Assembly (NCBI GenBank): GCA_020161505.1
Contig: JAIUNY010000001.1
Coordinates: 62,001 to 126,000, forward strand
Source: Armatimonadota bacterium
GTDB taxonomy: Bacteria > Armatimonadota > Fimbriimonadia > Fimbriimonadales > Fimbriimonadaceae
DNA: 64,000 nucleotides
Direction of reading: 5' to 3'
In this document: one piece after another, positions 10,944-39,494 of the stretch
Position numbering within the stretch: the stretch's first letter is position 1
Layout of the letters: every line of letters starts with the position of its first letter
Notes under the pieces: model-generated
Database searches by the model: none
Seen by the model: the letters and a program-made list of their open reading frames with translations, nothing else
Told to the model about the DNA's origin: nothing
Program-made: the position numbers and the translations under genes

Positions 10944-11032
10944 TGGCACCAGGTCGTAGGATACCGGAGTCCCACTTCGCCGTCACGACCAGAGGATTCG
11001 TGGCCATTCGGCCCGAACTCAAGCGAGGGTCC

Positions 11033-35961: not shown

Positions 35962-36068
35962 ACTTTGATTTGTTGAACCTCAAGAGCTAGTGGCGTAAGC
36001 CTGGGACATCCTAGCGAGCGAGGGAAAAGAAGAATACCCGAGCCGGGCCGGGATCGCGCCTGGTTGGG

Positions 36069-36464
36069 TTAGGACCGGGGGGATTCCGAGGAATCAGCGG
36101 ATTTGGGTTCGGACTCCGAGGCGGCAGCGGGCGCGGCTTTCTGACCAGCATTTTTGGAGGCATAGAGTTTGACGCCGCGATTCGCAACCATCGATCCGAA
36201 CCCCGCCATCACGACCAGCATCAGGATACGCACGAGCACTTCCATGAATGTGCTGGCGGCTTGAGAAAGCTGAATCGGCTCGTCGGGTTCGATTTTCAGG
36301 CGAACCTCGGGCGGAACCTGGAAGAGATCGTAGGCCAGTTTGAAGGCGATCACGATCATCGCGACGCCGAAGATGAAAGTGAGGAGTCCCACCCAAGCAG
36401 AGCCCCCGCGTCGCCGGTGGGCTTGCGGAAACCTCCTTGTCTGGACTGGGGATGCCTCGTGCAT
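36069..36464 (-). CDS. Small two-TM membrane protein downstream of a c-di-AMP riboswitch
   Basis: 131 residues from ATG 36464 (MHEASPVQTRRF). A basic N-terminus is followed by TM1 (WVGLLTFIFGVAMIVIAFKLAYDLF), a loop of about 30 residues with PPEVRLKIEPDEPIQL, TM2 (FMEVLVRILMLVVMAGFGSMV) and a Ser/Ala/Glu-rich C-terminal tail (AAASESEPKSADSSESP). No known family is recognised. The same frame is open 91 codons upstream, but that stretch has no protein character and contains a terminator-like hairpin, so it is leader. The riboswitch 300 nt upstream suggests a role in osmotic, potassium or cell-wall balance. Confidence 0.65.
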   Translation of the reverse strand: MHEASPVQTRRFPQAHRRRGGSAWVGLLTFIFGVAMIVIAFKLAYDLFQVPPEVRLKIEPDEPIQLSQAASTFMEVLVRILMLVVMAGFGSMVANRGVKLYASKNAGQKAAPAAASESEPKSADSSESPRS

Positions 36465-36514
36465 GGGATGTGAGTATATCGCGACGCGCAGGCTTCGTTG
36501 ACGAAAACCGGAGT

Positions 36515-36560
36515 TCAAAAAACGGTGTGGCGGCTCCGACGACATCGTCAGAACCGCCAC
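36515..36560 (-). terminator. Terminator-like hairpin in the riboswitch leader (possible attenuator)
   Basis: On the minus strand GTGGCGG (36560-36554) pairs with CCGCCAC (36533-36527), with an inner stem GACG/CGTC. ACCG and a run of six T follow. It lies between the riboswitch and the small membrane-protein start (36464), so it could be the expression platform. It is 200 nt from the aptamer, further than usual. Confidence 0.55.
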
Positions 36561-36766
36561 GGGACACAATAGAGTTGCGTCGCGCAGGCGGAGGAAGACT
36601 AAAACCCCGCCTGTCGGGTTAGGTCGCTCCGGAGTCATGCGTCCCCGGAAGGATGACGAATCCTGGCTGCCGTGAGGACAACTTTGTCCCTTGGCGCCGC
36701 TGGGTTGAGTAAAGAATGCTGCGAGCAGATTCCCCATCTAGCCCTTTGGCCAGGTCATTGTTTTTT

Positions 36767-36879
36767 GGCCGACGAGGTTAGCTGACGGGTTAGGGACAAT
36801 AACTACCCTTCGCTCATGTGAGCGATTCACCCCAGAACCGGGTCCCCCGTTGACACCGCTCGGCGAACCGCTCGGGGCC
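36767..36879 (-). promoter_or_regulatory. Cyclic-di-AMP riboswitch (ydaO-yuaA class)
   Basis: On the minus strand the consensus blocks of the class occur in order. GGGGGACCC (around 36847-36839) is followed by GGGGTGAATC (36833-36824). A short hairpin CGCTCA-TG-TGAGCG (36824-36811) comes next, then GGGTAG (36808-36803) and GTCCC. AACCCGTCAGCTAACC (36791-36776) is the most diagnostic block. CCTCG (36777-36773) pairs with CGGGG as P2, and GGCC/GGCC closes P1. The 5' part also holds the small UUCG-capped hairpin seen in known aptamers. Aptamers of this class sense c-di-AMP and usually switch genes off. The downstream gene on this strand is the small two-TM protein. Confidence 0.9.
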
Positions 36880-36894
36880 ATTAGGCCAGGAATC

Positions 36895-36931
36895 GGTGGC
36901 AAGCCACCACTAGGCAATTTATCACATTGCC
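36895..36931. other. Two tandem hairpins next to the riboswitch
   Basis: GGTGG-CAAG-CCACC (36895-36908, counting the inner GC pair) and GGCAAT-TTATCAC-ATTGCC (36913-36931). On the minus strand they precede the aptamer and may be in its transcript; on the plus strand they lie in the leader region of the ABC importer. The role is unknown. Confidence 0.35.
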
Positions 36932-36987: not shown

Positions 36988-37070
36988 CTGAATACGTACT
37001 CATAACTCGGATGAAGTAACATGAGGGGTGCTGGCAACGGGGCCGGCGGTCTTTTGTGAGTTGTTCACCG

Positions 37071-39494
37071 ATGTTGGTTCGACGTCTCGTCCTCGCCGTT
37101 ATAACCCTCCTGCTCGCGTCGAGCGGTTTCGCAGAAAAAGTCACGACCCTCACCGTTTGGGGTATGGCGATTACTCCTGACGAAAAGGGCACCGATGTAC
37201 TCGTGCGCCAGTTTGAGCGCGAAAACCCGGGTGTTCGTGTTCGCTTGATCGGCATGGGTGCCGGGGCCATGAACCCCCAAAAGCTGATGACGGCGATTGT
37301 GGGCGGAGCCCCTCCCGATCTCATCCGCCAAGACCGATTCACGATCTCCGACTGGGCGAGTCGAGGCGCTTTCGTGCCGATGAACCAGTTCATCGAGCGC
37401 GACAAAGCCGCCCGCGATCCGCGAACCCCGACCCGCGAGCAATACTATCCGGCCGCGTGGGACGAAACGGTTTACGATGGTGAGGTCTACGGCATCCCGA
37501 TCGGTGCGGATAACCGGGTGCTGTACTACAACACCGACGTCTTCGCCAAGAACGCGGACAAGCTCCGAAAAGCTGGACTCGACCCGGCGAGGCCCCCGCG
37601 TACCTGGGAAGAGACACTGGCCTACAGCAAGGCTCTCACCGAATTCAACGCAGACGGCACGCTCAAGACCGCAGGGTTCATCCCGAACTATGGCAACAGC
37701 TGGCTCTACATGTTCGCGTTTCAGAACAATGCGAGCTTCATGAGCCCGGATGGCCGAACCTGCACGCTCTACAGCAAGGAATCTGAAGAAGCCCTCCAGT
37801 TCATGAAGGAAGGCTATGAGATTCTGGGCGGCTATGAAAACGCGCTCAAGTTCCAGAGCGGGTTCCGAGGCGGGGAAAACGACCCGTTTGCGATTGGCCA
37901 GGTCGCGATGGCGATCAACGGCGACTGGATGATCGCAAACTACTCTCGCTATTCTCCGAAAGCGAAGTTTCTCACGGCTCCAGCTCCGGTGCCGGCGGCC
38001 CGTCTCGCCAGAACCGGGCGATTCCAGAACGAGAAGGATCCCTACATCACCTGGTCGGGCGGATTCGCGTGGTCGATGCCGCGCGGGGCCCCGAACCAAG
38101 AACTCGCTTGGAAGTTCATCAAGTGGATCACGAGCCTTGAGGGCCGAAAGGTCAACGTTCAAGCGCAGGCCGAGCTCGATGTCTCTCGGGGCAGGCGCTA
38201 CATCCCTCGCATCGAAGCGATGGTCGAGGCGAACGAGTGGCTGATCAAGGAGTACGCGAGCGGCGACAACGTCTACGACCAGGCCCTGCGTCAACACGTC
38301 GCGATGATGCCCTACGCCCGGCTTCGCCCCGCTACGTTTGTGGGTCAGAAACTCTGGGACGAACACGTCCGAGCGATTGAGCAAGCGTGCCGTGGTGCGC
38401 AAACCCCCGAGGAAGCACTTAAGTCGGGCCAAGAGAAAGTTCAGATCATCCTGGATGAGTTCAACAACAAGAAGAACTATCCCGAAATCGACATCCGGGT
38501 TCCGCTCGGAATCGCGTTCGTCACGGTGGTGCTTGGCCTGATCGGCTGGGTTGGCTGGATGATCAAAAAGGGCGACGGTCGAGTGAGCGTGACCGAAACC
38601 AAGGCGGGATACCTCTTCATCGCACCGTGGATCATCGGGTTCCTCGTCTTCACGCTCGGCCCCATGCTGGCGTCGCTGATCTTCTCGTTCATGCAGTACG
38701 ACGTCTTGAATCCGGCCCACTTTGTTGGATTCAAGAACTTCACCGACGTCTATGTGAACGACCGTGAGATGGTTCTCAAGGCCTTCACCAACGTCGGTTA
38801 CCTCGCGATTGTCGGCATCCCGCTCGGCCTGATGACCGGTCTGGCGATTGCCATGATGCTGAACACGGGGGTTAAAGGCATCCGGTTCTATCGTACGGCG
38901 TACTACCTGCCTTCGATTGCTCCAGCCGTGGCGGCGACGTTCCTGTGGGTTTGGATCTTGAACCCAGACAACGCCCGAGGCTTGCTCAACAACTTCTGGA
39001 ACAACACGTTGTTCGAGTGGTTCGCGGTCGCTCCTCCGGGATGGCTGACCGTCGAGTCGTGGGCGAAACCGTCGCTGATCGTGATGGGCCTCTGGGGGGC
39101 GGGTGGCGGCATGATTCTGTGGCTGGCTGGTCTCAAGGGGGTTCCGAGAACTCTCTACGAAGCAGCCGAGATCGACGGTGCTTCGGGCTGGCGACAGTTC
39201 CTGAGCGTGACCCTGCCGCAGTTGAGTCCGCTGATTTTCTTCAACGCGATCATGGCGGTAATCGGGGTTTTGCAGACCTTTGACGGCATCTACATCATCA
39301 CGCGGGGCGAGAACATGGGGCCAAACGACAGTCTGGCGACCCCGGTTTACATGCTCTTCAACAACGGATTCGCCTACTTCCGCATGGGATACGCCTCGGC
39401 TCTGGCATGGGTGATCTTCCTGATTGTGGTGCTGGTGACCTTCTTCCAATTTAAGATCGCCCCGCGCTGGGTGCACTACGAGGTGAACAAGTGA
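37071..39494 (+). CDS. Fused substrate-binding protein and ABC importer permease (MalE-MalF like)
   Basis: 807 residues from ATG 37071; GTG 37056 is an alternative. A signal peptide (LVLAVITLLLASSGFA) leads into a type-1 extracellular solute-binding domain up to about residue 455 (LTVWGMAITPDEKGTDVLVRQF, GAPPDLIRQDRF, YGIPIGADNRVLYYNTDVF, SGGFAWSMPRGAP). A membrane linker follows, then a MalF-type permease starting GYLFIAPWIIGFLVFTLGP, with the EAA loop EAAEIDGASGWRQFLSVTLPQLSP. Binding protein and permease are normally separate. The stop overlaps the next permease gene (GTGA). Sugar or oligosaccharide import is inferred; no ATPase gene is nearby, so a shared one is expected. Confidence 0.9.
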   Translation: MLVRRLVLAVITLLLASSGFAEKVTTLTVWGMAITPDEKGTDVLVRQFERENPGVRVRLIGMGAGAMNPQKLMTAIVGGAPPDLIRQDRFTISDWASRGAFVPMNQFIERDKAARDPRTPTREQYYPAAWDETVYDGEVYGIPIGADNRVLYYNTDVFAKNADKLRKAGLDPARPPRTWEETLAYSKALTEFNADGTLKTAGFIPNYGNSWLYMFAFQNNASFMSPDGRTCTLYSKESEEALQFMKEGYEILGGYENALKFQSGFRGGENDPFAIGQVAMAINGDWMIANYSRYSPKAKFLTAPAPVPAARLARTGRFQNEKDPYITWSGGFAWSMPRGAPNQELAWKFIKWITSLEGRKVNVQAQAELDVSRGRRYIPRIEAMVEANEWLIKEYASGDNVYDQALRQHVAMMPYARLRPATFVGQKLWDEHVRAIEQACRGAQTPEEALKSGQEKVQIILDEFNNKKNYPEIDIRVPLGIAFVTVVLGLIGWVGWMIKKGDGRVSVTETKAGYLFIAPWIIGFLVFTLGPMLASLIFSFMQYDVLNPAHFVGFKNFTDVYVNDREMVLKAFTNVGYLAIVGIPLGLMTGLAIAMMLNTGVKGIRFYRTAYYLPSIAPAVAATFLWVWILNPDNARGLLNNFWNNTLFEWFAVAPPGWLTVESWAKPSLIVMGLWGAGGGMILWLAGLKGVPRTLYEAAEIDGASGWRQFLSVTLPQLSPLIFFNAIMAVIGVLQTFDGIYIITRGENMGPNDSLATPVYMLFNNGFAYFRMGYASALAWVIFLIVVLVTFFQFKIAPRWVHYEVNK

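Follow-up and report, generated by a model that had tools for sequence, protein, structure and literature searches.

The Locus and Its c-di-AMP Riboswitch

The window, i.e. the whole stretch of 64,000 nucleotides analysed here, carries on its minus strand a riboswitch aptamer, a terminator-like hairpin and a gene coding for a 131-residue membrane protein (Table 1). The product of a divergent gene on the plus strand (37056–39494) is a single chain of 812 residues, in which a solute-binding protein is joined to an ABC permease domain, and a palindrome, TGAGTACGTATTCA (36989–37002), is located between this gene and the riboswitch. In relatives, the counterparts of this gene are likewise preceded by palindromes resembling TGAATACGTATTCA, and all of these are possibly repressor operators.

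When compared with all Rfam families using cmscan, the window yielded a sole riboswitch, namely a ydaO/yuaA aptamer (RF00379), scoring 75.2 bits (gathering score, 38), with an E-value of 1.2e-15 and model positions 1–134 complete. Every conserved block is intact, including GGGGTGAATC followed by AACCCGTCAGCTAACC, in the order given by the original prediction, which had recognised the riboswitch on the minus strand from these blocks and had suggested the covariance-model search. Its assignment is confirmed by this match, and only the extent is to be corrected, the aptamer reaching 36897, slightly past the predicted end.

The helices and the tail pseudoknot of the aptamer are kept by compensatory change. 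For 31 pairs in 22 aligned riboswitch members, standard pairs fill 96.5% of the cells, versus 85.5% in shuffles and 35–54% when slid, and 17 pairs have changed on both sides, versus 9.7 in shuffles; these counts are inflated by kinship among the sequences and refer to a structure written from the window sequence. In the pseudoknot of the window, an A-T pair takes the place of the C-G pair found in most relatives, with the pairing kept. The aptamer is genuine and under selection. A diadenylate cyclase, which the original prediction had proposed to look for, is encoded in the window's genome (one PF02457 domain, E 5.8e-39), so that the enzyme making the ligand is present. The window aptamer presumably binds c-di-AMP.

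Known targets of this riboswitch class are K+ transporters, amino-acid transporters, and cell-wall and osmotic genes (PMC7266159). With regard to its full-length match, its conserved blocks and its tail pairing, the window riboswitch is an ordinary member of the class, but its setting is unusual. Extra hairpins are flush against the aptamer on both sides, and the neighbouring gene, preceded by a promoter-like box of its own, falls outside the usual osmolyte, K+ and cell-wall set.

Table 1. Features of the riboswitch and 131-residue protein locus, with positions in the window.
Feature	Position	Strand	Basis
Putative -10 region of the riboswitch unit, TGTGATAAAT	36917..36926	-	Position equals that of the boxes in relatives; weak match
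Hairpin flush 5' of the aptamer, GGTGGCTTGCCACC	36895..36908	-	Equivalent folds in 15/15 loci
Aptamer, RF00379, c-di-AMP riboswitch	36752..36897	-	Covariance-model match, full length; covariation
Pseudoknot strand 1, GTTATTGT	36796..36803	-	Pairs with the aptamer tail; compensatory changes in relatives
Pseudoknot strand 2, ACAATGAC	36754..36761	-	Pairs with strand 1; compensatory changes in relatives
Hairpin directly after the aptamer, CTGGCCAAAGGGCTAG	36738..36753	-	Found at nearly all of the 15 loci; abuts the Shine-Dalgarno-like sequence
Degenerate Shine-Dalgarno-like sequence, ATGGGGAATC (relatives GGAGGAGGAG)	36728..36737	-	Alignment of 13 loci
Intrinsic-terminator-like hairpin and T run	36517..36560	-	15 pairs, T6; counterparts in relatives
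Putative -10 box TATACT of the 131-residue protein gene	36473..36478	-	Counterpart of GGTATN[CA]T in relatives
131-residue protein, two membrane segments, phylum-wide nameless family	36069..36464	-	ORF; hydrophobicity; family matches absent

Elements Surrounding the Aptamer

The riboswitch accompanies the family of the 131-residue protein at 15 loci, all of them in Fimbriimonadaceae. Upstream of the aptamer, most of these loci harbour TATAAT/TATACT-like boxes, of which the window version is weak. The hairpins preceding and following the aptamer lie outside the Rfam model. The former differs in sequence between loci; the latter abuts a sequence like GGAGGAGG, of which the window has a degenerate form. 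Furthermore, several genera share the conserved and apparently non-coding blocks AACCTCC and CACCACTGGGG, which are located between the aptamer and the terminator (L064, L066, L069, L072, L144, L157).

Terminators have been described as platforms of c-di-AMP riboswitches (PMC9481103). The hairpin with six T, correctly placed by the original prediction between the aptamer and the ORF, is found at 36560–36527; 10 of its pairs are G-C, its loop is 4 nt long, and it is followed by ACCGTTTTTT. A terminator scan of the region returned five sites, versus 0.9 in shuffles, among which this hairpin is by far the strongest. In an automatic scan, stems of -18 kcal/mol or lower were detected behind the aptamer in 13 of the 15 loci, compared with 30 of 101 control windows, and such strong stems are located at similar distances with and without an intervening ORF. 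A frame of 222 codons, which extends from 36737 across the terminator and into the gene of the 131-residue protein, was considered as a fusion and rejected, since 19% of shuffles leave this stretch open by chance and no fused frame was seen in the units of relatives.

Small Helical Proteins and Other Riboswitch Contexts

In two relatives (G024 and G019), a helical protein of 90–92 residues starts directly behind the second hairpin, and the terminator comes after its ORF. We compared 106 riboswitches, i.e. the surroundings of 105 fetched matches and the window copy, with ORFs called mechanically. According to an iterated profile search, about 40 of the 106 are followed by a small helical protein, a count that can be raised by helical sequences owing to their simple composition; the search gathered 36 sequences from one seed and 43 from another, 35 being common to both. 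Among these proteins is one of 88 residues from the window's own genome, the ORF of which lies directly behind a second RF00379 copy on contig C34 (L143, G000:C34:4702-10235; L001 1501-1950). In the window unit itself, no ORF for a helical protein was found even with a permissive profile search, and a decayed version of such an ORF was rejected, the profile signal being absent. In several relatives (L098, L122, L125, L131 and others), the riboswitch precedes a hisB-hisH-hisA-like run, a small ORF and an rpoB-like gene, and an IGPD domain was confirmed for one riboswitch-associated run of this kind.

The 131-Residue Membrane Protein and Its Promoter-Like Box

The 131-residue protein possesses two hydrophobic segments, at residues ~20–50 and ~68–98 (19-residue windows), in line with the two membrane helices predicted for it. 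It has no Pfam or NCBIfam match above cut-off, and neither a known family nor a solved structure was found by sequence search, in agreement with the earlier statement that it could not be placed in a family. Its homologues are present in 211 of 251 genomes drawn across Armatimonadota, with a single match in nearly all genomes among those listed. Most homologues from named genomes bear the label Fimbriimonadaceae or Armatimonadetes, by which the window is assigned to the phylum Armatimonadota.

In the window, the TATACT box precedes the ATG by 8 nt, and the terminator stem lies about 48 nt upstream of this box. The related motif GGTATN[CA]T was found no more than 75 nt upstream of the family in 24 out of 40 Fimbriimonadaceae loci, whereas shuffles gave 0.2 loci on average and a control stretch gave 1, and its occurrence is independent of the presence of the riboswitch. 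The genes for major facilitator superfamily (MFS) transporters found at the locus in relatives have equivalent boxes in many loci, also with and without riboswitch. All these boxes, as well as those upstream of the aptamer, would act as promoters. The original prediction had overlooked the TATACT between terminator and start codon, together with the second riboswitch and the phylum-wide homologues of the protein.

In the window, GGTATNCT occurs six times, versus 1.5 expected, one occurrence being located about 15 nt before a tRNA gene. In the genomes compared, TANNNT boxes are enriched at a distance of 6–9 nt upstream of candidate in-frame starts of long ORFs (1.3–2.3% versus 0.2–0.9%), a pattern that would fit leaderless starts in part of the genes. 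Further, GGTATTCT and GGTATCCT (36031–36038 and 10958–10965, respectively) are present upstream of two minus-strand tRNA genes, where they would fit a -10 element used by the lineage.

Distribution and Synteny in Relatives

RF00379 matches were obtained in 65 of 101 genomes (the window's own and relatives), using filters that can lose weak matches. A search for homologues of the 131-residue protein near c-di-AMP riboswitches, as proposed originally, does recover the 15 Fimbriimonadaceae loci, but the riboswitch is not located upstream of most orthologues of the protein.

At eight of the 15 loci, the riboswitch is followed by an MFS transporter gene and then by the gene of the 131-residue family (G011, G017, G022, G023, G024, G032, G071 and G072). 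At five, the riboswitch lies directly upstream of the latter gene without an MFS gene (the window, G014, G019, G029 and G061), and in G083, only an MFS fragment is present between the two. In G008, both genes are inverted and converge on the riboswitch, which stays in place with its hairpin.

In relatives, the MFS gene between the riboswitch and the gene of the 131-residue family matches MFS_1 and, with a score under the cut-off, also the Tet(A)/(B)/(C) model. It resembles in these respects the Tet(A)-type DHA1 transporters, but it scores far below the curated Tet(A)/(B)/(C) cut-off, and the window's genome is devoid of an orthologue. Relocation of the gene within that genome was rejected: the best match there is another paralogue, given its identity of 29–32% with orthologues that share 41–72% mutually, and the orthologue is missing. 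The other seven genomes of the genus to which the window belongs carry the MFS and 131-residue family genes, and no riboswitch was found at the locus. In most of these seven, the gap between the ABC and MFS genes measures about 47–127 nt and is therefore too short for an aptamer.

A Proposed Self-Contained Riboswitch Unit beside an Independent Gene

The original prediction had regarded the 131-residue protein as a new member of a c-di-AMP regulon. This is not well supported, considering the 211 of 251 genomes that carry the protein versus the 15 loci with the riboswitch, the separate promoter-like box downstream of the terminator, and the lack of a conserved antiterminator. With moderate confidence, we propose instead that a self-contained riboswitch unit is located beside an independently transcribed gene for the 131-residue protein. 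The two are read as separate transcription units because the promoter-like boxes are conserved with or without riboswitch. The aptamer, its covariation, the terminator hairpin, the conserved boxes and the synteny were computed; the promoter role of the boxes, the binding of c-di-AMP, the mode of control and the gene's freedom from predominant control by the riboswitch are inferred.

The riboswitch unit would comprise, in this order, its own -10 box, the 5' hairpin, the aptamer, the second hairpin with the Shine-Dalgarno-like sequence, about 170 nt, and the terminator. The ancestral unit probably controlled how a small helical protein, with its ORF immediately behind the aptamer, was translated, a control that some relatives apparently still show. 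The aptamer would most likely sense c-di-AMP, whereupon the tail pseudoknot and the following hairpin would alter how accessible the Shine-Dalgarno-like sequence is, as they would in those relatives that have an ORF, and the terminator would end the riboswitch transcript. The gene of the 131-residue protein, behind this terminator, would be a separate gene with its own promoter, probably not controlled mainly by the riboswitch; read-through from the riboswitch could add to its expression. Because the -10 box is weak and the Shine-Dalgarno-like sequence degenerate, the unit's own function in the window is uncertain.

The adjacency of riboswitch and gene in the window and four relatives counts against separate units, as it is also the layout of attenuation, whereby c-di-AMP would favour the terminator and lower the expression of the 131-residue protein, and polymerase would read through when the ligand is absent. 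Aptamer, T6 terminator and gene follow one another on one strand, either directly (the window, G014, G019, G029, G061) or with the MFS fragment of G083, and the 5' arm of the window terminator is partly complementary to the 3' part of the aptamer (z -1.8), so that such a mechanism is conceivable. We nevertheless consider it unlikely. This complementarity is inconsistent in relatives, the aptamer/terminator duplex energies at most of the 15 loci being close to those of shuffles, and no conserved antiterminator linking the two elements was found over these loci. In the window, aptamer and terminator are about 190 nt apart, and the promoter-like box sits between the terminator and the start codon. 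Moreover, the protein family persists across the phylum in the absence of the riboswitch, and in G008 the riboswitch unit is intact despite the inversion.

It is likewise unlikely that the aptamer is a decaying remnant of a unit deprived of its small protein gene, and that it controls nothing in the window's genome. Decay could be suspected from the weak -10 box and Shine-Dalgarno-like sequence, and the undetectable helical-protein ORF and the seven congeners without riboswitch at the locus point in the same direction; however, the conserved aptamer blocks are all intact, the pseudoknot still pairs, with A-T at the one differing pair, the hairpin and the terminator are intact, and several other genera keep aptamer and terminator hairpin without ORF.

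Stand-alone riboswitch RNAs acting in trans exist, such as those of the Listeria Rli55 type. With an aptamer and a terminator on a short transcript with no obvious ORF, the window unit would resemble them, but their ligand class is different. It is also unlikely that the unit represents a c-di-AMP-sensing RNA of about 390 nt that stands alone and lacks a protein product, having been kept in several Fimbriimonadaceae genera and acting in trans after loss of the small protein gene.

Implications for c-di-AMP Signalling in Armatimonadota

No paper dealing with c-di-AMP riboswitches in Armatimonadetes/Armatimonadota was found in the literature searched, and earlier reports of such contexts may exist. 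In this phylum, the riboswitches precede genes outside the classic set, namely those for small helical proteins, hisBHA and an efflux-type MFS transporter, so that the c-di-AMP regulon may look different there. With regard to the proposed self-contained unit and its independently transcribed neighbour, the gene located directly behind a riboswitch need not be the target of this riboswitch, and a conserved promoter-like box between the two becomes visible only through comparison with relatives.
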